From positions 1-38,299 of the forward strand of contig CALGNK010000043.1 in assembly GCA_937958695.1 (NCBI GenBank): a stretch of 38,299 nucleotides of DNA. Reading direction: 5' to 3'. A program made the position numbers and the translations under genes. The notes beneath the pieces were generated by a model. It saw nothing but the letters and a program-made list of their open reading frames with translations. It had not been told where the DNA came from and did no database searches. Source of the DNA: an uncultured bacterium. Lineage in GTDB: Bacteria > DUMJ01. Shown one piece after another: positions 4,830-19,172 of the stretch. Position 1 is the stretch's first letter. Each line of letters opens with the position of its first letter.

Positions 4830-6810
4830 ATTGCCATTCAGACAAGTCCATCTTGATTTCCATACATCTCCATTGATACCAGATGTAGGAATAGACTTTG
4901 ATCCCGAAGAATTTGCCAAGACATTAAAATCTGCCTATGTCAATTCTATTACAGTCTTTGCTAAATGTCATCATGGGATGTCTTATTATCCAACAAAAGT
5001 TGGAGTGACACATCCCAGCTTAAAGAGAGATCTTTTAGGTGAGATGGTAGAAGCTTGTCACAGAGAAGGTATAAGGGTCTGCGCCTATATCAGTGTGGTT
5101 TGGGATGAGTACTCTGCCAGTAATCATGGTGATTGGTTACAGGTAAATAAGGATGGGACCTTGGCAGGGAGACCTCCTTTTGGTAATAGAGGTTGGAGAT
5201 TCTTATGTATGAATTCACCCTATGTAGATTATGTAGCAGAACAGACAGAAGAGGTACTTAAACTTTACGATATAGACGGTGTATTCTTTGATATAGTTAT
5301 GCAAACATTTCCTGGATGCGTATGTAATCACTGTATAAAGAGCATGAAGAATCTAGGGCTTGATCCAACAAGTGATGTGGACCTATATAGACACTCTCAA
5401 ATCATAGGTAGAAACTTTATGGCTAGGATGGATAAACTAGTCAAAGATATAAGACCTGATATCAGTATATTTTATAATTCTAGGCTAAAGCTTGAGAGTG
5501 ATTATGAGTTAGGTATGAGACAAGAGTCAGATTATTTCACCCACTTTGAGATAGAATCTTTACCCTCTGGAGGTTGGGGTTATAATCACTTCCCTTTATT
5601 TGTTCGTTATTATCGGACTCTTGGTAAGGATCTCCTTGGTATGACAGGAAGATTTCATAAAAGTTGGGCTGATTTTGGAGGATTCAAGAATACACCTGCC
5701 TTAGAGTATGAGTGTTTTACAATGTTGGCTCTAGGGGCAAAGTGTTCTGTTGGAGACCAGCTACATCCTCGTGGAAGGCTAGATAAGACTGTTTATAGCC
5801 TAATTGGTAGTGTTTATAAGAAGGTTGCTGAAAGGGAAGAGTGGTGTAAGAATGGCAAGCCTCTCTCTGATATAGGGGTTCTTATCTCTAACTCCTTCTA
5901 CAACGACTGGAAGACAGATTCTGATGAAGGAGCTATGAGGATCCTCTCTGAATCTCACTATCAGTTTTCATTTATAGATTCTTGTGAGGATCTAAATAAG
6001 TACAAACTTATTATTGCTCCGGATAGAGTTAATATAGATGAGAAACTTGCTAAGAAGTTAAGGGATTATCTAGATAATGGTGGAAAGCTGATATTAAGTT
6101 ATAAATCAGGCCTAAACGGTGAAAGATTTATCCTTGATGAACTTGGCATTGAGTACCTTGGTGATAGTGACTATTCCCCTGATTACTTTAAGGTTTTGGC
6201 TCCTATAGATAAAGGCATAGAACCTGCAGAGTATGTAATGTACGAAAAGGGGACAAAGGTTCTCCCTAAAGATGGGACTCAAGTTTTAGCAGAGATTTAT
6301 CAGCCTTACTTTAATAGAACCTGGGAGCATTTCTCGTCTCATGCACAGACTCCTCCGGAGAAGAAAAGCCCTTATCCAGCAGTAACCAGGAATGGTAATA
6401 TAATTTATATCTCTTATCCCATATTCAGGGCATACATACTCCACGGGAATCTAGTTTATAAGAAGTTAGTGAAAAACTGTATAGACCTTCTCTTGGATAA
6501 ACCGCTAGTCTTAGGCGAATTGCCTTCGACTGCTAGGATAACTGTAAATCTACAAAAAATTGACAACAAAACTAGAACCATAATCCATTTACTCCACTAT
6601 ATACCTGAGAGAAGGTGTAAGAGTATAGATGTTATAGAAGATGTGATACCTCTTTACAATGTAAAGTTAAAATTAAGGCTCGAGAATCTTCCGTCTCGAT
6701 GTTATCTTGCACCAGAGATGAAAGATTTAGAGTTTGTAGTATATAATAATGAGTATGTAGAATTTAATGTTCCAGAGGTTAATGGTTATCAGATTGTAGT
6801 TTTAGAATAA
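4822..6810 (+). CDS. Putative alpha-L-fucosidase, GH151/GHL6 type
   Basis: A 662-aa, three-part glycoside hydrolase-like protein. Seen: an N-terminal (beta/alpha)8 barrel (about 1-340) with HLDFHTSP (10-17), IDGVFFDIVM (151-160, D157 a candidate nucleophile) and a CVCNHC motif (166-171). A Rossmann/flavodoxin-like domain resembling the GH42 trimerisation domain follows (about 350-450, DIGVLISNSFYN and LIIAPDRV), then a beta-rich C-terminal part. Known: the hypothetical glycosyl hydrolase 6 domain plus this middle domain is the architecture of GH151 alpha-L-fucosidases. That fits the GH29 gene and fucose isomerase-like gene in the same operon. No signal peptide, so cytoplasmic. ATG at 4822 with AAGGGGTGAG upstream. 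Substrate inferred; a family of other specificity with the same fold cannot be excluded. Confidence 0.75.
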   Translation: MIELPFRQVHLDFHTSPLIPDVGIDFDPEEFAKTLKSAYVNSITVFAKCHHGMSYYPTKVGVTHPSLKRDLLGEMVEACHREGIRVCAYISVVWDEYSASNHGDWLQVNKDGTLAGRPPFGNRGWRFLCMNSPYVDYVAEQTEEVLKLYDIDGVFFDIVMQTFPGCVCNHCIKSMKNLGLDPTSDVDLYRHSQIIGRNFMARMDKLVKDIRPDISIFYNSRLKLESDYELGMRQESDYFTHFEIESLPSGGWGYNHFPLFVRYYRTLGKDLLGMTGRFHKSWADFGGFKNTPALEYECFTMLALGAKCSVGDQLHPRGRLDKTVYSLIGSVYKKVAEREEWCKNGKPLSDIGVLISNSFYNDWKTDSDEGAMRILSESHYQFSFIDSCEDLNKYKLIIAPDRVNIDEKLAKKLRDYLDNGGKLILSYKSGLNGERFILDELGIEYLGDSDYSPDYFKVLAPIDKGIEPAEYVMYEKGTKVLPKDGTQVLAEIYQPYFNRTWEHFSSHAQTPPEKKSPYPAVTRNGNIIYISYPIFRAYILHGNLVYKKLVKNCIDLLLDKPLVLGELPSTARITVNLQKIDNKTRTIIHLLHYIPERRCKSIDVIEDVIPLYNVKLKLRLENLPSRCYLAPEMKDLEFVVYNNEYVEFNVPEVNGYQIVVLE

Positions 6811-8326: not shown

Positions 8327-8354
8327 GGGCGCCTCTCGGCGCCCCTTTTATTTA
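8327..8354 (+). terminator. Intrinsic terminator of the fucose operon
   Basis: A GC-only 7-bp stem (GGGCGCC at 8327-8333 with GGCGCCC at 8338-8344) closes a TCTC loop and is followed by CTTTTATTTA. It stands out sharply from the AT-rich surroundings and lies 5 nt after the isomerase stop. It separates region A from the lacI-headed operon. Confidence 0.88.
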
Positions 8355-8360
8355 ATAAAT

Positions 8361-8390
8361 TCTTAACATTTTCTTAACAAAATCTTAATA
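8361..8390 (+). promoter_or_regulatory. Three 11-bp-phased TCTTAAYA repeats
   Basis: TCTTAACA at 8361-8368, TCTTAACA at 8372-8379 and TCTTAATA at 8383-8390 are spaced exactly 11 bp apart, directly upstream of the predicted -35 element at 8399. Direct repeats of about 11 bp are the usual binding pattern of OmpR/PhoB-family response regulators, and TTAACA repeats at this spacing match the PhoP box known from Bacillus. No response regulator gene is in the window. Function is inferred from pattern only. Confidence 0.45.
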
Positions 8391-8398
8391 TTAACCTC

Positions 8399-8427
8399 TT
8401 TACTTTATATTAATCTTGATTTATAAT
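8399..8427 (+). promoter_or_regulatory. Predicted sigma-70-type promoter of the lacI operon
   Basis: TTTACT (8399-8404) and a perfect TATAAT (8422-8427) are separated by 17 nt. Transcription would start near 8434, giving a leader of about 54 nt before the lacI ATG at 8488. A half-symmetric TTGGAAAACGTTATTAA (8438-8454), centred on AACGTT, would fall in the early transcribed region and has the central CG typical of LacI-family operators, which suggests autoregulation. Confidence 0.45.
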
Positions 8428-8487
8428 AAAATCGATTTTGGAAAACGTTATTAAAAAACGATATTATAAAATGAGAAAGAGGATATA

Positions 8488-9498
8488 ATGGTAAGAATAA
8501 TTGACATAGCAGAAAAAGCCAATGTATCACCTGGGACAGTCTCTAAAATACTGAAGGGGACTTATACGGGCTCCTCTGAGACAAAGGATAGAGTATTAAA
8601 GATAGCTAAAGAATTAGGATATAAACCTAATCTTTTAGCTAGTAGTTTAAGGAGTAAAAAAAGTAAGATCATAGCCCTTATTGTTCCAGAAATTACTGTT
8701 CCATTTTTCCCTGAGCTGAGTAGAGGAGTAGAAGATGAGGCAAGAGAAAATGATTATAATGTGATCCTATGTAGTAGTAATAATGACCCTGTTCTGGAGG
8801 CTAAATATCTTGAGTCCTTAGAAAGAAGATGGGTAGATGGAATAATATTTTCTAGAATTACTGGAGATACCTTTAAAGAAAGAATTCCTCGTCTTTTAGC
8901 TAATAAAATGAAAATGGTCTTTGTAGACCGTGTTCCCTCTGAAAATGACTTACCTATTGCAAGAGTTGAGATAAATAATGAGAAGGAAGCCTATAAAGCT
9001 ACTGAATTCCTTATAAGATTAGGGCATCGAGATATAGCTTGTATAACAGGACCTTTGAATACTCGCATAGCCCAACAGAGATTAGAAGGATATAGAAAAG
9101 CTCTTAAGGATAATAATCTTCCTATCCGAGGGGAGTTTATTGTAGAGGGGACTTTTAAGCTAGACTCAGGATTTAAAGCTGTTAATATCCTTTTGGATAG
9201 AAATATACCCTTTACTGCTATTTTTGCCTGCAATGACCTTATGGCAATAGGAGCAATAAAAGCATTGAGGAAGAGAAACTTACGAATACCAGAAGACATC
9301 TCTATAGTAGGATTTGACGGAATTCCTCTTAGTGAGTATATAGAGCCGTCTCTTACTACTGTAGTTCAGCCAATATATGAGATGGGAAGGACTGCAGCTA
9401 AGTTGCTCTTAGAAGGCATTAAGAGTGGCGTTGAGCCTAAAGATCATATCATTTTAGAGGCTAAGGTAGAAGTAAGAGAATCGACAAAGGAGTTGTGA
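8488..9498 (+). CDS. LacI-family transcriptional regulator
   Basis: A 336-aa repressor-type regulator. Seen: an N-terminal helix-turn-helix and hinge helix (IDIAEKANVSPGTVSKIL at 5-22, continuing to NLLASSLRS), followed by a periplasmic-binding-protein-like sensor domain (about 60-330) with IIALIVPEITVPFFPEL, CNDLMAIGAI and ISIVGFDGI motifs. It should sense a sugar or sugar phosphate and control the downstream glycosidase and transport genes, and perhaps the fucose operon. GAAAGAGG lies 5 nt before the ATG. It heads its operon, and its TGA overlaps the next gene's GTG. The candidate operator at 8438 suggests self-control; the ligand is unknown. Confidence 0.93.
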   Translation: MVRIIDIAEKANVSPGTVSKILKGTYTGSSETKDRVLKIAKELGYKPNLLASSLRSKKSKIIALIVPEITVPFFPELSRGVEDEARENDYNVILCSSNNDPVLEAKYLESLERRWVDGIIFSRITGDTFKERIPRLLANKMKMVFVDRVPSENDLPIARVEINNEKEAYKATEFLIRLGHRDIACITGPLNTRIAQQRLEGYRKALKDNNLPIRGEFIVEGTFKLDSGFKAVNILLDRNIPFTAIFACNDLMAIGAIKALRKRNLRIPEDISIVGFDGIPLSEYIEPSLTTVVQPIYEMGRTAAKLLLEGIKSGVEPKDHIILEAKVEVRESTKEL

Positions 9499-11534
9499 TA
9501 CTGGTGGAGATTCTAGAGTTAAATTCTAACAAGTTGAAGGTTCTTTTTGATGAGAAAACAGGAGCTATTAGGCAGATAGAGAATCTAGAAAAGAATGTTA
9601 AAGGGATAGATGCAGAAGAGATGGCTGAAAATTGGAGGCTATCTATTCCTTTGAAGGAAGACTGGACATATATGGTTTATGGTAAAGATGTAGAGGTATC
9701 TAATAAAAAGTTTGAACGGAATTCGATTATTTTTGAATGGAATAATATTGAGATAGAAGGTAATATCCAGCCTATAAAGATAATAGTACAATTTGAAGTG
9801 AAGGATGAAGATTTATACTGCTCTATGAGTATAGAGAACAATTCTAGATATCAAATCGACTATGTTTGGTTTCCTATCATATCTGGAGTGACAAATCTTT
9901 ATCCTGGAGAAAGAGATGACTTATGTGTTCCGACCTCCTTCCAAGACGATATTAAGAAAGGTATCTTTTCAATAGACTGGCCAGATTATAGGAATAGATA
10001 TTGGTATCAGGCTAGAGAAGTTCTATATTACGGTTATCCCTTTAGTGGGCTTATAATGCAATGGATAGATTTGTTTAATTCCAATTCTAGATGTGGGTTA
10101 TTTTTTAGTTCAGAGGATACTGAGAAGTTCTGTACTTTATTTATTATTGAACATGAAAGAGCCAAAAGTCCAATGAGTTTTTCAATTGTTAAGGCTCCAT
10201 TTATAAAAGAATATGAAACTATAACTTTACCAAAAGGAGTAGTTTCTCTTCACAGCGATGATTGGCATAGAGGAGCAGAAAAGTATAGAGGCTGGATAAA
10301 TTCTTGGTTTAAACGTAAAAAACAGGCTGAATGGGTTAGGAATTTAGATGGATGGCTAGCCTTCCAGGGGCATGCGGGTGACCATCATATAGCTGTGTCG
10401 TATAAAGATTATCCTAATTGGTTAGATAAGGCAAAATTGGTAGGCCTTAATACTATCCATGTTCATTGTGGTGTTCATGAACAGGGTATAGAAGGCGGAT
10501 TTCCTTATTGGAATAATTGGAGTAAACGTATGGGAGGGAGAGAGAAGCTGATTTCAGTTATAGAGGAAATACATAAAAGAGGAGGACATATAGTTACTTT
10601 TGCAAAGGATAATAAAGTAAATCTAGGTTTACCAGAATTTTTTGAGAGATTCTACAGATACACAATAAAGGCAAGAGATGGGGGATTCCCGCAAGTACAT
10701 TATCCTATAGGAACAGTTGATATGCAATTTGCTCAAGTATTTTTAGCCAACATGTGTAGAGCAGACAAATCTTGGCATGAGTTTATAGTACCTATTTTTG
10801 AGGATTTAGCAAAAACTGGCCTAGATGGAGTAATGATTGATGAATGGTGCAGTGGGCATCATTTCTGTTTTGATAATAACCATCCTCACTCTAAACCTTC
10901 AAACCAGTGGATTGGCCAGCTAGAGTTAGGTAGGAAGATAGCTTTAGTATGGTATCAGCAAAATCCAAATCATTTGTTAGCTGGTGAAGAGGTTTGGGAT
11001 GCCTCTTATGAGTTTATGGATCTCTCATTTGCTAGAGGTTCTTCAAATCGTTCATATCAGATATATAGGTATACTTTACCGTGGATACAGAGAACAGCCG
11101 AAATATTAGAAAATCAATATGATCATCTCAACCATGCTTTTGCTTGTGGGCATATCTTTGCACTCTGTTTTGATTATTATCATAGTGGACCTGAATCTTA
11201 CCCTAAATTTTCTAGCTACCTTAAAGAAGTGATAAGAATAAGAAGCGAAGTAAGACCATATTTTTTAGATGGTGAATTTCTTGATAACCTATGCCATTCT
11301 ATAGACTCAGATGGAGAGGTAGAATATAGGTGTTATAGATTAGGGAATGATGAATTAATTATAGTATATAATCGCACTTCTAATAAAGCCTCATTTAGGA
11401 TTAAGTTTGATTGGAAACCGAAGGCTTTTGTAATTCGAGCTCCTAGGGAGAAGAATCTAGTTAAAGAAGGAAGAGTTTTATTTGGAGGGGATTTAGAGGG
11501 ATATCAGATGCTTGCTTTAGAGTTGAAGTGCTAG
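9495..11534 (+). CDS. DUF6259-type putative glycoside hydrolase
   Basis: A 679-aa protein with a beta-sandwich N-terminal half (about 1-260), a (beta/alpha)8-like domain (about 280-600) and a beta-rich tail, the layout of DUF6259 proteins. Seen: NTIHVHCGVHEQG (319-331), GLDGVMIDEWCSG (442-454), where D449 is at a typical nucleophile position after a barrel strand, and LAGEEVWDAS (495-504) with E498/E499 as a possible acid/base pair. No signal peptide. The substrate is unknown. GTG at 9495 overlaps the lacI stop, but AAGGAG ends only 2 nt before it; GTG at 9504 (11 nt spacing) is an alternative start, giving a protein three residues shorter. It lies 22 nt before the cupin gene and probably forms one catabolic unit with it. 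Confidence 0.72.
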   Translation: MILVEILELNSNKLKVLFDEKTGAIRQIENLEKNVKGIDAEEMAENWRLSIPLKEDWTYMVYGKDVEVSNKKFERNSIIFEWNNIEIEGNIQPIKIIVQFEVKDEDLYCSMSIENNSRYQIDYVWFPIISGVTNLYPGERDDLCVPTSFQDDIKKGIFSIDWPDYRNRYWYQAREVLYYGYPFSGLIMQWIDLFNSNSRCGLFFSSEDTEKFCTLFIIEHERAKSPMSFSIVKAPFIKEYETITLPKGVVSLHSDDWHRGAEKYRGWINSWFKRKKQAEWVRNLDGWLAFQGHAGDHHIAVSYKDYPNWLDKAKLVGLNTIHVHCGVHEQGIEGGFPYWNNWSKRMGGREKLISVIEEIHKRGGHIVTFAKDNKVNLGLPEFFERFYRYTIKARDGGFPQVHYPIGTVDMQFAQVFLANMCRADKSWHEFIVPIFEDLAKTGLDGVMIDEWCSGHHFCFDNNHPHSKPSNQWIGQLELGRKIALVWYQQNPNHLLAGEEVWDASYEFMDLSFARGSSNRSYQIYRYTLPWIQRTAEILENQYDHLNHAFACGHIFALCFDYYHSGPESYPKFSSYLKEVIRIRSEVRPYFLDGEFLDNLCHSIDSDGEVEYRCYRLGNDELIIVYNRTSNKASFRIKFDWKPKAFVIRAPREKNLVKEGRVLFGGDLEGYQMLALELKC

Positions 11535-11556: not shown

Positions 11557-12765
11557 ATGAATATTCAAAGAAAAAAGGATTTATTAAATAAAGAATTAAT
11601 TCGAAATGGAGGTATTTTTAGATTAGCCCCCTGTTGGGTACCCAGAGCATTTATGATTCCAGGTGGAAGACTTAAATTAAGAGAAAAAGATTTATATGCT
11701 TTGGGAACTCATAGGGGTGGAATAGATGAGAGATGGCTTGCTTCCACTACAAAAGCAGATAATGGACCAGGTACACCTGAAGACGAAGGACTAAGTTATA
11801 TAGCCATATTGGAAGATGAAAAGGGAGAAAAGATTCTTCTAAAAGAGGCTATTGATATAATGGGAGATATTATTCTTGGTGAAGAAGTAATGAAGAAATT
11901 TGGAGGATGGATGGTATTGACTAAGTTTTTCGATAATCAAGGACCTATCCCATTCCATGTTCACCTTATGGATGAGCATGCACAGAAGGTTGGTATGTTA
12001 GGTAAGGATGAGGCATACTATTTCCCACCACAGCTCAATAACAGATTTAATAATTTCCCTTATACCTTTTTTGGATTAGAGCCTGGTACTACTAAAGAAG
12101 ATATAAAGAGATGTTTGCAAAATTGGAATAAAGGAGATAATGGTATTCTTTACTATTCAAAGGCGTATAAATTGAAGCCAGGAACGGGTTGGAGGGTTCC
12201 TGCAGGTGTATTGCATGCGCCTGGTTCTTTAGTGACTTATGAGGTTCAGAAGCCATACGATCTGTATAGCATGTTTCAGTCTTTAGTGGAAGATAGACCT
12301 GTTTCTAGAGATTTGTTAGTAAAAGATATACCTAATGAATTTCATTATGACTTTGATTATCTTGTGAGTGTATTAAATTGGGAAGAGAATACAGATCCAG
12401 AGTTTGTAAGACACCATTATGTAGAGCCTAAACCAGTTAAAGAAGAAAAAGAGATGGTAGAAGAAGGATATATAGAAAAATGGGTAGTCTATGGATGGAA
12501 AGATTTTAGTGCTAAGGAATTAACAGTACTTCCTGGAAGAACCGTAGTTATAATAGATAATTCTGCTTATGGAGCTATTGTAGTCCAAGGTAGAGGTGTA
12601 GTAAATAATCTGGTAGTGGAATCTCCTACATTGATAAGATATGGAGAAATGACCCAGGATGAATTCTTTGTTACTATAGATTCTGCTCGAAATGGAGTGA
12701 AGATTACAAATGTAAGTCAAACTGAGGATTTAGTGATACTTAAACATTTTGGTCCAGAGGTGTAG
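11557..12765 (+). CDS. Cupin sugar-isomerase-like metalloprotein
   Basis: A 402-aa protein whose metal site resembles class I mannose-6-phosphate isomerase. Seen: PFHVHLMDEH (132-141) gives H134 and H136, GKDEAYYFPP (149-158) gives E152, and RVPAGVLHAPG (213-223) gives H220, an arrangement of His-x-His, Glu and distant His as in cupin isomerases. Overall similarity to true ManA is not obvious to me: the N-terminus (WVPRAFMIPGG, THRGGIDERW) is unfamiliar. It is therefore annotated by fold and site only. The ATG at 11557 has GGGAGG upstream. It sits between a putative glycosidase and an SDR, so it probably acts on the sugar released. Sugar and reaction are unknown. Confidence 0.68.
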   Translation: MNIQRKKDLLNKELIRNGGIFRLAPCWVPRAFMIPGGRLKLREKDLYALGTHRGGIDERWLASTTKADNGPGTPEDEGLSYIAILEDEKGEKILLKEAIDIMGDIILGEEVMKKFGGWMVLTKFFDNQGPIPFHVHLMDEHAQKVGMLGKDEAYYFPPQLNNRFNNFPYTFFGLEPGTTKEDIKRCLQNWNKGDNGILYYSKAYKLKPGTGWRVPAGVLHAPGSLVTYEVQKPYDLYSMFQSLVEDRPVSRDLLVKDIPNEFHYDFDYLVSVLNWEENTDPEFVRHHYVEPKPVKEEKEMVEEGYIEKWVVYGWKDFSAKELTVLPGRTVVIIDNSAYGAIVVQGRGVVNNLVVESPTLIRYGEMTQDEFFVTIDSARNGVKITNVSQTEDLVILKHFGPEV

Positions 12766-12775
12766 AGGAAGAGTT

Positions 12776-13540
12776 ATGATTTTCCCAGAATTTGATATGT
12801 CAGATAAAATAGCCTTAGTTACTGGAGCAAGTAAAGGGATAGGAAGAAGTATTGCCCTAACCTTAGCAAAAGCTGGGGCAGATATAATAGTTACTGCTAG
12901 AACTGAAGAAGAACTTAAAAAACTAGTTTCTGAGATAGAAGGTTTTGGAAGAAGAGCAGAATATATTGTAGCTGATCTTAGCAATACTAAAGAAGCCATT
13001 AATATGGCAAATAGGGCATTAGAAGTCTTTGGAAGAGTTGATATTCTTGTTAATAATGCTGGAGTAAGCTTTCCTCAATCTGCTTTAGAAGTTACTGAAG
13101 AAGCATGGGATACCACTATGAACATAAATTTAAAGTCACTATTCTTTATAACACAAATTATAGGGAAAGGTATGATAGAACAGAAAAGGGGTAAGATTAT
13201 AAACATATCCTCTCAAGCAGGATTAGTGGGATTAGAAGACCACTCTGTTTATTGTGCTTCTAAAGCAGGAATAATTTTACTTACTAAAGTTCTTGCTATA
13301 GAGTGGGGGAAATATGGGATAAATGTAAACGCTTTAGCCCCGACTGTTATATTAACCCCAATGGGTGAAAGAGCTTGGGCAGATTCTGCTAAGAGGCTTA
13401 AGATGCTAGAACAAATTCCAATAGGAAGATTTGGTTATCCAGAGGATGTAGCAGGAGCAGTCCTTTTTCTTGCTTCTAAAGCATCTGACCTTGTTACAGG
13501 AGCAGTTATTCCTGTAGACGGCGGATATACCGCTAGATAG
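12776..13540 (+). CDS. SDR-family oxidoreductase
   Basis: A 254-aa classical SDR. Seen: VTGASKGIGRSI with the TGxxxGxG cofactor motif, NNAG (DILVNNAGV), INISSQAG with the catalytic Ser, YCASK with Tyr and Lys, and a terminal PVDGGYTAR. The residue after beta-2 is not acidic (TARTEEE), so NADP is more likely than for the SDR at 1228. A TTG at 12749 would add nine residues; the ATG at 12776, with GAGGAAG about 6 nt upstream, is preferred. It begins 10 nt after the cupin gene and is followed by a 148-nt gap before the transporter genes. Probably a sugar or keto-sugar acid dehydrogenase; the substrate cannot be named. Confidence 0.9.
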   Translation: MIFPEFDMSDKIALVTGASKGIGRSIALTLAKAGADIIVTARTEEELKKLVSEIEGFGRRAEYIVADLSNTKEAINMANRALEVFGRVDILVNNAGVSFPQSALEVTEEAWDTTMNINLKSLFFITQIIGKGMIEQKRGKIINISSQAGLVGLEDHSVYCASKAGIILLTKVLAIEWGKYGINVNALAPTVILTPMGERAWADSAKRLKMLEQIPIGRFGYPEDVAGAVLFLASKASDLVTGAVIPVDGGYTAR

Positions 13541-13688: not shown

Positions 13689-15587
13689 ATGATGAGTAAA
13701 ATGATGAGAAGAATTTTGATGGGTTTGTTAATATTGAGTTTAGTATTTAGTATTTTTATAACTTCTAGTAGTGTTTCTCTTGCTCAGAAAAAGTATAACG
13801 AAGCTCCTATGTTAGCTGAATTAGTTAAACAAGGAAAGCTTCCTCCAGTTGAACAAAGATTGCCCAAAGTCCCATATGTTGTAAAAACTATTGATGGGGC
13901 AAAGAATGCTAGGTATGGTGGGACTATAAGATTTGTGCGTACAGACCCGTATTATGATGCTGATGGGGGTATCAGTAATATCGCTCAAATAGTGCACATC
14001 CCAGGAGAGGGAGGTACGTTTAGACAAACTGGAAGTAAGATGATTCCAGATATAGTATATAGTTATGAAGTTAGTGAAGATAATAGGGTGTTTACTTTCC
14101 ATTTAAGAGAAGGTTTACGTTGGTCTGATGGGTATCCAGTTACTACAGAGGATGTGCAGTTTGCCTATGAAGATGTCCTATTAAATGATAAACTTACACC
14201 TGTATTTCCCAAAAATCTTACAGTCGCTGGAGAACCATGTAAAGTGGAGGTTATAGACAGGTATACTTTTAAGGTGCGATTTTCGAAGAGTTATGGTGGA
14301 TTCCTTGGAGTATTAGGACGGCGTATGATGGGTTACAGCTGGTTTTTATTACCAAAGCATTATCTAAGAAATTTCCATCCTAAATACACGCCATTAGAAA
14401 AGTTAGAACCTCTTATTAAAGAAGCAGGTTTTGAAAAAGGGCAATGGTGGAATCTGTTTAATAGAAAGATAGATCCTTATAGAGGGGATGTAGGATGCCC
14501 TACTCTCACCCCTTGGGTAATAGTGGAGTCTAATCCTAAGACAGGGGTGATTAGATGGGAAAGAAATCCATATTATTATAAGGTAGATGAGTTAGGTAAT
14601 CAACTTCCTTATATAGATAGGAGGGAATCTTACCTTTTAAAAGACCCAAAGATGGTTCCTATGAAAGTAATATCTGGAGAAGTAGACTTTATGCGACAAT
14701 TTGGAGAACTTAAGGATCTTCCACTTTATAAACAGTATGAAGAGAAAGGTTTATATAAAGTCCTTCTGTTTCAGAAAGACGTAGAAACAGGATATATCTG
14801 TCTTAATCAGAGCTATGAAGATCCGATATGGCGTAAGATTGTAGGAGATGTCCGTTTTAGAAAGGCTTTAAGTATGGCAATAAATAGAAAGGAGATAATT
14901 GATGCTATCTATCTCGGTCTTGCTATCCCTGCAACTCTGGTACCTAGTACTTATGATCCGGCCAAGGCAAGTCAAATTCTTGATCAAATAGGATTAAATA
15001 AAAGAGACGCAGAAGGTTGGCGATTAGGACCAGATGGTAAAAGATTTGAGATCCCATTTGAAGTTCCTCAACTTATGGGTTTTGAAGCTCCAATGACTGA
15101 GATGGTTATAGACTTTTTAAAGAAGGTAGGAATTTATGCGACTATGAAGACAGTAAGCTTTGAACTATGGGATCAATTAGGGGCTTCGAATAAGATTAAA
15201 GCTTCTATTCATTGGGGACAAGCTCCTGCTACTTGGAAAAAGGCTCCACAATCATCTTATGATGAATTTTTACCTGATAGATATAGAAGTTGGGGGGCAG
15301 GTTATCGTCAGTGGTATGATTCGGATGGAAAGACGGGTATAGAACCTCCCTCAGTAGTAAAAAAATTATTTGAATTAAAAGAGAAAGTACATACTGGCTC
15401 TCCTGAAGAGGCTAAGAAAGCAGCATTAGAAATAGCTAGGTTACATTATACTAATTTCTTTATAATAGCTTTAACCTGGCCTAAACATCCAATAGTGTTT
15501 TCAGCGAAACTAGGTGGTCTTCCTCCTGAGGGTGGTGATTCTTACGTGCCCTATACTATGATGATACAATTCTATTTTAAACAATAA
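13689..15587 (+). CDS. ABC transporter solute-binding protein, family 5 (Opp/Dpp type)
   Basis: A 632-aa extracytoplasmic binding protein for uptake. Seen: a Sec signal peptide (basic MMSKMMRRI, then a hydrophobic stretch to about residue 28, cleavage probably after SLA) without a lipobox Cys. The family 5 signature TFHLREGLRWSDGYPVTTED follows at about 135-155, then the usual long two-lobed domain. Although many relatives bind peptides, family 5 proteins in saccharolytic thermophiles often bind oligosaccharides, and this one sits among glycosidase genes. GAAGGAGG precedes the ATG at 13689; a second ATG at 13692 is equally usable. A strong hairpin follows the stop, before the permease genes. 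The ligand is inferred to be an oligosaccharide. Confidence 0.92.
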   Translation: MMSKMMRRILMGLLILSLVFSIFITSSSVSLAQKKYNEAPMLAELVKQGKLPPVEQRLPKVPYVVKTIDGAKNARYGGTIRFVRTDPYYDADGGISNIAQIVHIPGEGGTFRQTGSKMIPDIVYSYEVSEDNRVFTFHLREGLRWSDGYPVTTEDVQFAYEDVLLNDKLTPVFPKNLTVAGEPCKVEVIDRYTFKVRFSKSYGGFLGVLGRRMMGYSWFLLPKHYLRNFHPKYTPLEKLEPLIKEAGFEKGQWWNLFNRKIDPYRGDVGCPTLTPWVIVESNPKTGVIRWERNPYYYKVDELGNQLPYIDRRESYLLKDPKMVPMKVISGEVDFMRQFGELKDLPLYKQYEEKGLYKVLLFQKDVETGYICLNQSYEDPIWRKIVGDVRFRKALSMAINRKEIIDAIYLGLAIPATLVPSTYDPAKASQILDQIGLNKRDAEGWRLGPDGKRFEIPFEVPQLMGFEAPMTEMVIDFLKKVGIYATMKTVSFELWDQLGASNKIKASIHWGQAPATWKKAPQSSYDEFLPDRYRSWGAGYRQWYDSDGKTGIEPPSVVKKLFELKEKVHTGSPEEAKKAALEIARLHYTNFFIIALTWPKHPIVFSAKLGGLPPEGGDSYVPYTMMIQFYFKQ

Positions 15588-15601
15588 ACTTAACATATAG
15601 G

Positions 15602-15654
15602 TTGATTGGCGTTTCCTAGAGATATTTAGTTAATTTCTAGGAAACGCCAATTTT
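15602..15654 (+). terminator. Long hairpin between binding-protein and permease genes
   Basis: ATTGGCGTTTCCTAGA (15605-15620) and its exact reverse complement (15636-15651) form a 16-bp perfect stem, which extends by one G-U and two A-T pairs to 19 bp with a 9-nt loop; a TTTT run follows. Such hairpins after a binding-protein gene typically stop part of the transcription or shield the 3' end of the binding-protein mRNA, so that it is made in excess over the permeases. The short T run suggests a partial terminator. Confidence 0.75.
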
Positions 15655-15684
15655 GACCTTCTAGACAAAAAAGGAGGTATTTGA

Positions 15685-16683
15685 ATGTTGTATTATATAA
15701 TACGGCGTATTATCATAATAATTCCTTTGTTGTTTATCCTTTCTATAGTATCTTTTGTTATTATTCAGCTTCCTCCAGGAAGTTTTTTAGAAACTTATGT
15801 AAGCACTTTAAAACTATCTGGAACCGAAGTATCAGATGCTGAAATTGCTCGTCTTATAAAACTATACGACCTAGATAAGCCTCTGTATGTACAATATTTC
15901 ACATGGATAAAAAATATAGTATTTCATGGAGATTTTGGTAGATCTTTCCAATGGAACCGTCCAGTAAGTCAACTTATTGGTGATAGAATAGGATTAACTA
16001 TGCTAATCTCTATTTTAACAATACTTTTTACATGGATTATAGCAATTCCGATTGGAATATATTCTGCCCTCCATCAGTACTCTATATTTGATTACCTTTT
16101 TACTTTTTTAGGTTTTATTGGACTTGCATTACCTAGTTTTTTAGTAGCTCTCATAGTTGTATGGGGAGCATTTTCAACCTTTGGAATTAGTGTAACTGGA
16201 CTTTTTTCGGCTAAATTTATAAATGCCCCATGGAGTTGGGCTAAAATAATAGATATGCTTAAACATATCTGGGTTCCCATGGTAATAATTGGCATCTCTG
16301 GAACGGCAGGACTTATTCGTACTATGAGAGCTAATCTGCTTGATGAACTACGAAAGCAGTATGTTATTACTGCACGCGCAAAAGGTCTTCCTGAAAAATG
16401 TCTTATATTTAAGTACCCTGTTCGTATAGCAGTTAACCCTCTAGTAAGTACTATGGGATGGATGCTTCCTGGCGTTGTTGGAGGAGAGGTTATAGTTTCA
16501 ATTGTCTTAAATATTCCTACTACTGGCCCATTACTTTATAGTGCATTACAATCACAAGATATGTATCTTGCAGGAAGCTTTATAATGATATTAAGCACTT
16601 TAACAGTAATAGGGACATTAATTTCTGACATCTTATTAGCGTGGTTAGACCCTAGAGTTCGCTATGGAGGGGTAGAAAAATGA
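15685..16683 (+). CDS. ABC transporter permease, OppB/DppB type
   Basis: A 332-aa inner-membrane permease. Seen: the characteristic N-terminus MLYYIIRRIIIIIPLLF with TM1, a large extracytoplasmic loop with DLDKPLYVQYFTWIKN, about five further TM segments, and the EAA-like cytoplasmic loop QYVITARAKGLPEKCLIFKY before VNPLVSTMGW. It would form the transmembrane channel with the next gene's product for the substrate delivered by the binding protein at 13689. The ATG at 15685 has AAAGGAGG 8 nt upstream. The stop overlaps the next ATG (ATGA), so the two permeases are translationally coupled. No ATPase gene follows. Confidence 0.93.
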   Translation: MLYYIIRRIIIIIPLLFILSIVSFVIIQLPPGSFLETYVSTLKLSGTEVSDAEIARLIKLYDLDKPLYVQYFTWIKNIVFHGDFGRSFQWNRPVSQLIGDRIGLTMLISILTILFTWIIAIPIGIYSALHQYSIFDYLFTFLGFIGLALPSFLVALIVVWGAFSTFGISVTGLFSAKFINAPWSWAKIIDMLKHIWVPMVIIGISGTAGLIRTMRANLLDELRKQYVITARAKGLPEKCLIFKYPVRIAVNPLVSTMGWMLPGVVGGEVIVSIVLNIPTTGPLLYSALQSQDMYLAGSFIMILSTLTVIGTLISDILLAWLDPRVRYGGVEK

Positions 16684-17816
16684 GTGAATCCAATAATTTT
16701 TTAGAGTATGAAGAAACAAAAGAGGTAGAAAAAGAAGAAAAATTTTATCTTGCCTCTCAAAGCCAGCTTATATGGTGGAAATTTAAAAGACACAAGTTAG
16801 CAATGATTTCATTTCCTCTGCTGATATTTCTCTATATATTGGCTATATTCGCTGATTTTTTTGCTCCTTATAATCCAGAGACACGTTTTCCAGCTTATTT
16901 GAATGTCCCTCCCACAAGGATTCATTTCTTCTCTAGAGAAGTGGGATTTCGGCGTCCATTTATCTATAACTTAAAAAGGGAATTAAATCCTAATTCCTTT
17001 CAGTTTATATTTATAGAGGATCATATGAAAAAGTACCCTATTAGATTCTTTGTAAAAGGGGAATCTTATAAATTTTTAGGATTCTTTACTAGTAATATTC
17101 ATCTATTTGGTACAGAGGAAGTTCCCATTTTCCTTTTCGGTACGGATAAATTAGGAAGAGATTTATTTTCTAGAACCATATATGGAGCACGTATTTCATT
17201 ATCTATAGGATTAGTAGGAGTTTTTCTAAGTTTTATTCTTGGAGTAATTTTAGGTGGTATTTCTGGATATTTTGGGGGGACAGTTGATGAAATTATTCAG
17301 CGAACAATCGACTTCCTTATTTCTATTCCGGGGATTCCACTTTGGATGGCGCTATCAGCATCTTTACCAAGAGATTGGTCGGTGGTAAGGACATACTTTG
17401 CTATTACTATAATTCTTTCTCTTGTTGGTTGGTGTGGTTTAGCAAGGGTGGTAAGAGGGAAATTATTGTCTCTTAGAGAAGAAGATTTTGTTATGGCTGC
17501 GAGATTGGCAGGAGCTAGCGAGTGGCGTATAATTACTAGACATCTTCTACCATCTTTTGCGAGTCATCTTATAGTATCCATAACTCTCTCTATACCTAGC
17601 ATGATATTAGGCGAAACTGCTTTAAGCTTTTTAGGCTTAGGAATGAGGCCTCCTGCAATCAGTTGGGGGGTATTATTGCAGGAGGCTCAAGAAGTAATTG
17701 TTGTAGCTCAGCGTCCTTGGCAGCTTATGCCTGCTTTTTTTGTAATCATTACTGTATTATTATTTAATTTTCTAGGAGACGGTTTACGTGATGCGGTTGA
17801 TCCTTATGCAAGATAA
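16680..17816 (+). CDS. ABC transporter permease, OppC/DppC type, with enlarged loop
   Basis: A 378-aa second permease subunit. Seen: a charged cytoplasmic N-terminus, TM1 (about 42-60), then the family signature FGTDKLGRDLFSRTIYGARI (153-172), four or five more TM segments, and the EAA loop EEDFVMAARLAGASEWRI. The loop between TM1 and the signature (about 63-152) is about 60 residues longer than in common DppC proteins; enlarged loops occur in subfamilies such as YejE. The ATG overlaps the OppB-type stop by 4 nt. It pairs with that protein; the ATPase subunits must be encoded elsewhere, and the - strand ATPase at the right edge is one candidate. Confidence 0.92.
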   Translation: MSESNNFLEYEETKEVEKEEKFYLASQSQLIWWKFKRHKLAMISFPLLIFLYILAIFADFFAPYNPETRFPAYLNVPPTRIHFFSREVGFRRPFIYNLKRELNPNSFQFIFIEDHMKKYPIRFFVKGESYKFLGFFTSNIHLFGTEEVPIFLFGTDKLGRDLFSRTIYGARISLSIGLVGVFLSFILGVILGGISGYFGGTVDEIIQRTIDFLISIPGIPLWMALSASLPRDWSVVRTYFAITIILSLVGWCGLARVVRGKLLSLREEDFVMAARLAGASEWRIITRHLLPSFASHLIVSITLSIPSMILGETALSFLGLGMRPPAISWGVLLQEAQEVIVVAQRPWQLMPAFFVIITVLLFNFLGDGLRDAVDPYAR

Positions 17817-17845: not shown

Positions 17846-17914
17846 TTGAAAGTAAATCTTATTAAAATTTTAGAAGGAGGAAAAGTATATTATGTTTACT
17901 TACGATGGTATTAA
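17846..17914 (+). other. Possible leader ORF before the GH63-like gene
   Basis: A TTG at 17846, preceded by AGGGGG about 8 nt upstream, opens a 22-codon frame that runs through the ribosome-binding site of the GH63-like gene and ends at 17914, beyond that gene's ATG at 17892. Its translation would pass over the downstream start in another frame and could affect its initiation. No peptide family is recognisable. It may be chance. Confidence 0.25.
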
Positions 17915-19172
17915 AGATGCTATTATAAATATTAGAGAACTGATGGTTAAAGATGGAATCAGATATCATGAGCGATCTAAAAGATATTTTTATTCTGGTT
18001 ATGGCAACAACTTATTTGATTGGGAAGTATATTTTGATAGCATTGTTTTAGGATACTTCAGCGCTGAAGATTATATAATTAACTCCCTTCGTATCTTTTT
18101 AGATTTTCAGAAAGAAAATGGGTTTATTCCGAGACACATTTATACGGGAGAAGAGCAGGAAGATGTCACTAGCGCTTGGCGACTATTTGAAAATGAAGAG
18201 CACTGTAAGCCATTTTTATGTCAGATTGCACTTCTTATATCGAAAATAAAGGGAGATATTTCCTGGCTTTCTCTAGAAGAAGTAAAAAAAATGATAAGGT
18301 ATATAAATTACTGGATTTCAGGCTGTGATAGAGATGGGAATGGCTTAAGTGAATGGAGTAGTGCTCCACATAGCGGAGCAGATACTCAGTTCGAAAGAGT
18401 AGGAGTTTGGCGCTCTTGCTTCTGTGAAGGTGTGGACTTGAATTGTTATCTTTATAGGGAATGTTTAGCCGCTGCAGAGCTCTGTAAAAATTTTGAACTT
18501 AAGGAATATGTTAATTTCTTTTATAAAGAGGCAGAAAAAAAGAAAAATAAGATTCAAGAATTATTATGGGATGCTCATGATACCTTTTTTTATGATAGAG
18601 ATATTAGAACGGGAAGAAATATTAGAGTGAAGTCAGCATCTGCATTTATTCCTCTCTGGGCTGGTATAGCTACTGAGGAACAGGCACATCTTTTGGTTGA
18701 GAAACATCTTAAGAATATTAATGAATTTTGGACAAAATTCCCAATTCCTAGCTATGGAATTTCTGAACATTCCTATTCACAATTTTATACCCCTGCTCCA
18801 GGAACAGACTCTACTTATACTCTAAGAAAAGGGCATTGTAATTGGTGCGGAGGGATGTGGCCACACTGGGAATATTTCATCGCTCATGGTTTAGAGAATT
18901 ATGGTTATCACGAGGAAGCTTTATATATAGCTAATAAATTCTATGAGGTAAGTATCAATAATCCATCTCTTTATGAATGGTATAATGCAGAGACTGGAGA
19001 AGGAGAAGGACAGCATCCTTTTTGTGCAGGAGCTTCTATACTTGGAATTTTCCTTCCTTTAGAGATAGGATTAGGCTTAGATCCTACGGAGATATCAGAG
19101 ATTAGTAAAAAATTGGATATTTCGCCAGTAAAAGAAAGACTAGAGTTAGAGTCGTTACCTGTTTATTACTAG
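17892..19172 (+). CDS. GH63/MGH1-like (alpha/alpha)6 glycosidase
   Basis: A 426-aa, mostly helical glycoside hydrolase-like protein related to clan GH-G (GH63, GH37) and to mannosylglycerate hydrolase-type enzymes. Seen: NLFDWEVYFDSIVLGYF (40-56), DGNGLSEWSSAPHSGADTQF (148-167) with D164 as candidate acid, NWCGGMWPHWEY (317-328) and YEWYNAETGEGEG (361-373) with E362/E367 as candidate base, the usual three-motif pattern of the clan. No signal peptide; cytoplasmic. Probably an alpha-glycosidase on an imported oligosaccharide; the sugar is unknown. GAAGGAGG is 11 nt before the ATG. It begins 75 nt after the permease gene and is the last sugar gene of this operon. Confidence 0.75.
   Translation: MFTYDGIKDAIINIRELMVKDGIRYHERSKRYFYSGYGNNLFDWEVYFDSIVLGYFSAEDYIINSLRIFLDFQKENGFIPRHIYTGEEQEDVTSAWRLFENEEHCKPFLCQIALLISKIKGDISWLSLEEVKKMIRYINYWISGCDRDGNGLSEWSSAPHSGADTQFERVGVWRSCFCEGVDLNCYLYRECLAAAELCKNFELKEYVNFFYKEAEKKKNKIQELLWDAHDTFFYDRDIRTGRNIRVKSASAFIPLWAGIATEEQAHLLVEKHLKNINEFWTKFPIPSYGISEHSYSQFYTPAPGTDSTYTLRKGHCNWCGGMWPHWEYFIAHGLENYGYHEEALYIANKFYEVSINNPSLYEWYNAETGEGEGQHPFCAGASILGIFLPLEIGLGLDPTEISEISKKLDISPVKERLELESLPVYY

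Follow-up and report, generated by a model that had tools for sequence, protein, structure and literature searches.

A Pho-box-like array of 11-bp repeats upstream of a lacI-headed sugar operon in an uncultured bacterium recurs at phosphate genes and at three candidate small RNAs

The PhoP box of Bacillus is made up of TTAACA-like words with a spacing of 4 to 6 bp. Pho boxes in general consist of tandem 11-nt units, two of which form the E. coli PhoB box (PMC4415409), and PhoB-type promoters carry the box 10 bp from the -10 element (PMC1906773). The cyanobacterial SphR Pho box, CTTAACCT, occurs in at least three copies with a 3-bp linker, for example as CTTAATTCtatCTTAATTTcgaCTTAATCA at pstS2 (PMC1906773). 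An 11-bp direct repeat located 10 bp upstream of the -10 element is also typical of the streptococcal csRNA promoters that are controlled by CiaR (PMC3091779).

The array described here lies on the plus strand of a 38,299-nucleotide stretch of DNA from an uncultured bacterium (the window), in the interval that separates a fucose isomerase gene, with its terminator, from a lacI-family gene. It consists of four words that fit YTTAAY within positions 8351 to 8390 (TTTAAT at 8351, CTTAAC at 8362, CTTAAC at 8373 and CTTAAT at 8384). Read as TTAAYA, the same array gives TTAATA at 8352, TTAACA at 8363, TTAACA at 8374 and TTAATA at 8385, in steps of exactly 11 bp. The first-pass annotation had noted three copies 11 bp apart; these are real and correspond to the last three of the four, for which CTTAAY-N5 (starts at 8362, 8373 and 8384) is the best notation. 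The first copy is located inside the T-rich tail of the preceding intrinsic terminator (GGGCGCC-TCTC-GGCGCCC plus tail, 8327 to 8350, plus strand). Since word, period (8 + 3 = 11 bp) and copy number all equal those of the SphR Pho box, the array is best filed with Pho boxes of the PhoB/PhoP/SphR class. A likeness to the Bacillus PhoP box had been proposed for it; the word CTTAAY is SphR-like and not specifically that of the Bacillus box. Unlike in the SphR box, the units vary after CTTAAY, and the nearest searched relatives outside the genus share only the domain with this bacterium.

Downstream of the array, a putative lacI promoter could be assigned by eye, with the -35 element TTTACT at 8399 to 8404 and, after a 17-bp spacer, the -10 element TATAAT at 8422 to 8427. 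The array had been said to abut the -35 element, which is roughly right, but a gap of 8 bp separates 8390 from 8399. Between the -10 element and the lacI start, two putative LacI operators, CGATTTTGGAAAACG and CGTTATTAAAAAACG (8429 to 8464, plus strand), both have the form CG-N11-CG and are conserved in the alignment with a sister species (G002), which suggests autoregulation of lacI. The LacI-family regulator (8488 to 9498; Pfam PF00356 and PF13377) is the first gene of an operon on the plus strand, its stop overlapped by the start of a DUF6259 (glycosidase-like) protein gene (9495 to 11534). The operon continues with a protein without a Pfam match (11557-12765), a short-chain dehydrogenase (12749-13540), an ABC transporter (13689 to 17816; SBP_bac_5 binding protein at 13689, permeases at 15685 and 16680) and a trehalase/MGH1-like glycoside hydrolase (17892 to 19172).

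We compared the genome studied (G000) with two sister species (G001 and G002). Among 40 genomes searched, these two alone are related to it more closely than at the level of the domain. Array loci were collected through pattern searches and from selected genome stretches, with shuffles, spacing counts and reversed-pattern searches as controls for chance. When three TTAAY words were allowed any period from 8 to 14 in the three congeneric genomes, the spacing pair (11,11) gave 13 matches (overlapping ones, with 7 distinct loci behind them), compared to at most 4 for any other pair. Four TTAAY words at a period of 11 are expected about 0.0005 times per genome under an order-2 model. In the whole window, no exact TTAAYA-N5-TTAAYA pair was found outside the array. 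The lacI array is kept at the same position in G002, where 36 of 39 positions are identical, compared to 30 of 44 in the promoter DNA that follows, and an equivalent terminator hairpin is found at the corresponding place. No close lacI orthologue was found in G001, and conservation at lacI therefore rests on two species. Among 42 collected units, C occupies the first position in 38, with TTAA nearly fixed and the linkers variable, a purity that is partly built into a profile made from selected arrays. Such a strong preference for the preceding C distinguishes these units from the PhoP and PhoB boxes.

The first-pass annotation had pointed to pst/pho genes as the place to look for further arrays, and these were indeed found upstream of phoA-pstS and pstCAB-phoU in the same genome, as with the 11-bp tandem direct repeats of Bacillus PhoP and E. 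coli PhoB and with the targets (pst, phoA) of the SphR box. At pstCAB-phoU, a two-copy 11-bp array, CTTAACAATTTCTTAAA, is present in all three species, and its distance to the TAAAAT -10 element is exactly 43 bp in each, even though the intervening DNA has diverged. Six looser units at the 11-bp period precede phoA-pstS on contig C26, where the alkaline phosphatase gene (PF00245, 1.3e-82) adjoins pstS, and in G001 an 11-bp array precedes a 5'-nucleotidase gene. No clear box was seen in the DNA surrounding a second pstS gene (C4). The lacI, pstC and RNA boxes (see below for the latter) share one orientation relative to their own promoters. Outside the genus, a pattern search of 38 genomes, each from a different family, yielded 15 loci, 3 of which lie directly upstream of pstC (G029 and G005) or pstS (G017), with the pst identity confirmed by NCBIfam. 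Because the pattern was chosen without pst in mind and pst genes are few in each genome, this search is the least biased test.

Several further observations were made at these loci. The six-unit promoter region before phoA-pstS (L224, about 6060-6190) has a near-identical duplicate, also with six TTAA units at 11 bp, before an SBP_bac_5 gene on C3 (L185, 8052-8130). Directly before a DUF4032-like gene stands a further series of six TTAA words with a period of exactly 11 bp (C8:18561-18621; L187, 6562-6625), which scores weakly against the unit profile, and an FMN riboswitch (RF00050) is located at L187, 4944-5078.

The strongest of the other arrays precede three protein-free, terminator-ended putative transcripts that are conserved across the genus, with loci at about 9085-9190 of L188 (minus strand), about 5952-6045 of L186 (minus strand) and about 6320-6443 of L185 (plus strand). 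RNA A (C37) lies near rpmB and points away from it, RNA B (C13) lies upstream of leuD and likewise points away, and the modelled part of RNA C spans C3:75377-75443. With transcript starts and promoters assigned by eye, the box is in each case found 10 to 11 bp from a -10-like word (TATACT or similar), followed by a short transcript and a strong terminator. Across the three species, the 3' parts of RNAs A and B show near or full identity, with variable flanks. RNA C was initially found in G000 only; a covariance model then detected copies in G001 (E value, 9e-8) and G002 (4e-7), both with upstream 11-bp arrays that the pattern search had missed. RNAs A and B have AGGTAACCTC and a C-rich stretch in common, and RNAs A and C share TAGCAGTCTAG. 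In RNA B, the reverse complement of CTCATAACCCACCTCCC is GGGAGGTGGGTTATGAG, a Shine-Dalgarno word shortly before ATG, and the csRNA-like architecture, with a putative anti-Shine-Dalgarno stretch and a terminator, is clearest here. The preference for pairing with start regions rather than with coding DNA was matched by 2 of 100 shuffles for each of RNAs B and C and by 14 of 100 for RNA A, and a duplex scan of 140 start regions revealed a general tendency and no nameable target mRNA. Probably, the C-rich anti-Shine-Dalgarno stretch of the RNAs blocks translation of target mRNAs.

Short terminator-ended RNAs with an anti-Shine-Dalgarno stretch, in several related copies, are found among the streptococcal CiaR csRNAs (PMC3091779), an architecture that the three candidates appear to have. 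Unlike in that system, the same box here also stands at pst/phoA, and none of the three RNAs matched an Rfam family at the gathering score. The Listeria LhrC RNAs, small RNAs that are present in several copies and controlled by the two-component system LisRK, would be a further parallel, but the signal there is cell envelope stress (PMC4132741).

The genome encodes two OmpR-family regulators, G000:C19:8472-9152 and G000:C37:7996-8670, and only the C19 regulator is present in all three species. A regulator of the PhoB/PhoP type, on which the first-pass reading depended, is thus available, together with a PnpS/PhoR-like kinase that is encoded directly downstream and is likewise shared by the three species. 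The C19 regulator securely belongs to the PhoB/PhoP/RegX3 class. It scores highest with the WalR, MtrA and PhoB models, all below cut-off, the best NCBIfam score being that of YycF/WalR; the top score of the kinase, with PnpS, is also below cut-off, and neither protein reached the NCBIfam equivalog cut-off for PhoB, WalR, PhoR or PnpS. Among solved structures, the regulator is best matched by RegX3, which takes part in the phosphate response of mycobacteria. Its naming as PhoB or PhoP would be derived from its apparent target genes. In contrast to the PhoP/PhoB boxes, none was seen at the regulator's own gene, the upstream DNA of which carries no clear box.

The second regulator was at first favored as the array binder, due to a CiaR-like recognition helix and an array of its own, and was dropped because it is absent from the sister species. 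Its upstream region (L189, 7160-7290, minus strand) carries CTTAGT, TTTAAT, CTTAGA and CTTAGA at 11 bp, located 10 bp from TATAAT, and it is probably autoregulated through this related but distinct box.

Among the other explanations, an OmpR-family site that serves a signal other than phosphate, such as cell envelope or carbohydrate stress, with a WalR- or CiaR-like regulator and the pst genes incidental, deserves the most attention. The YycF/WalR score of the C19 regulator, albeit below cut-off, would fit it, as would the csRNA-like RNAs behind the strongest arrays, reminiscent of CiaR and LisR, and the fact that the reverse complement of CTTAAY, RTTAAG, is the CiaR half-site. However, the CiaR csRNA family is defined by NTTAAG-N5-TTTAAG on the promoter strand together with a CiaR orthologue, and the half-sites here are on the opposite strand, so that their direction with respect to the promoter is reversed. 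The C19 regulator scores as WalR/MtrA/PhoB-like, and arrays that precede phoA-pstS, pstCAB-phoU, a 5'-nucleotidase gene and the pst genes of three unrelated families would be hard to reconcile with incidental pst targets. We therefore regard a non-phosphate signal as unlikely.

Binding of the array by the C37 regulator appears very improbable. It is the sole other OmpR-family regulator in the genome and has its own 11-bp array 10 bp from TATAAT, but its word, CTTAGA, is a different one, and G001 and G002, which retain both arrays and RNAs, yielded no orthologue of it. Still less credible is phased AT-rich curvature or an UP element that involves no specific protein: AT-rich words one turn apart beside promoters would suit it, yet the period is exactly 11 bp rather than 10 to 10.5, the association with pst/pho genes extends across families, and the leading C and near-fixed TTAA next to variable linkers, although partly a product of selection, also speak against it. 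Finally, looser versions of the word do arise by chance in the AT-rich intergenic DNA, as the control counts showed, but the spacing preference, the very low expectation and the lack of a second exact pair in the window, along with conservation in G002 and recurrence at Pho genes, leave a chance repeat as the least probable explanation of all.

The assignment to the OmpR/PhoB family and to Pho control is supported in silico by the pst/pho arrays and by the class of the C19 regulator. We consider it quite likely that the array is a Pho box for this regulator, activating lacI in phosphate scarcity, with LacI adding a sugar requirement, and that it is shared with phoA-pstS, pstCAB-phoU and the three RNAs. 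Under phosphate scarcity, the regulator, in its phosphorylated form, would occupy the four 11-bp units in head-to-tail order, with one monomer bound per helical turn along the same side of the double helix, and would bring RNA polymerase to the promoter of lacI. Through the operator-like words downstream of the -10 element, LacI would add the sugar requirement by autorepression, which would last until its sugar is present, and related boxes would drive phoA-pstS, pstCAB-phoU and the small RNAs. We infer activation rather than repression, and do so with less certainty at lacI, since its last CTTAAT lies 32 bp (33 in G002) from the -10 element, about two turns further than at the RNA promoters, with their PhoB-like 10 to 11 bp; at this distance, contact with RNA polymerase would have to differ from that at the RNA promoters.

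Altogether, the genus seems to possess a small Pho regulon, with regulatory RNAs and a glycosidase/transport operon headed by lacI among its members, and probably one phosphate signal drives the phosphate-uptake genes, the three RNAs and the sugar-use operon together. The unusual feature is the company of the box, namely csRNA-like RNAs together with a sugar operon headed by lacI, which sets it apart from the SphR box. Judged by sequence, the CTTAAY Pho box of cyanobacteria would also be present in this genus and at pst genes in three further, unrelated families. The array would tie phosphate sensing to a lacI-headed sugar operon, and the related arrays hint at a family of regulatory RNAs that is under Pho control and has no match in Rfam. 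We see an even chance that, in this isolated lineage, a PhoB-type regulator directly drives pst/phoA, a family of three csRNA-like RNAs with anti-Shine-Dalgarno stretches and a glycoside-use operon gated by LacI. If this is true, phosphate starvation would throttle translation of chosen mRNAs and alter sugar uptake, and a readable box of fixed geometry would allow Pho regulons to be predicted from sequence in uncultured lineages.
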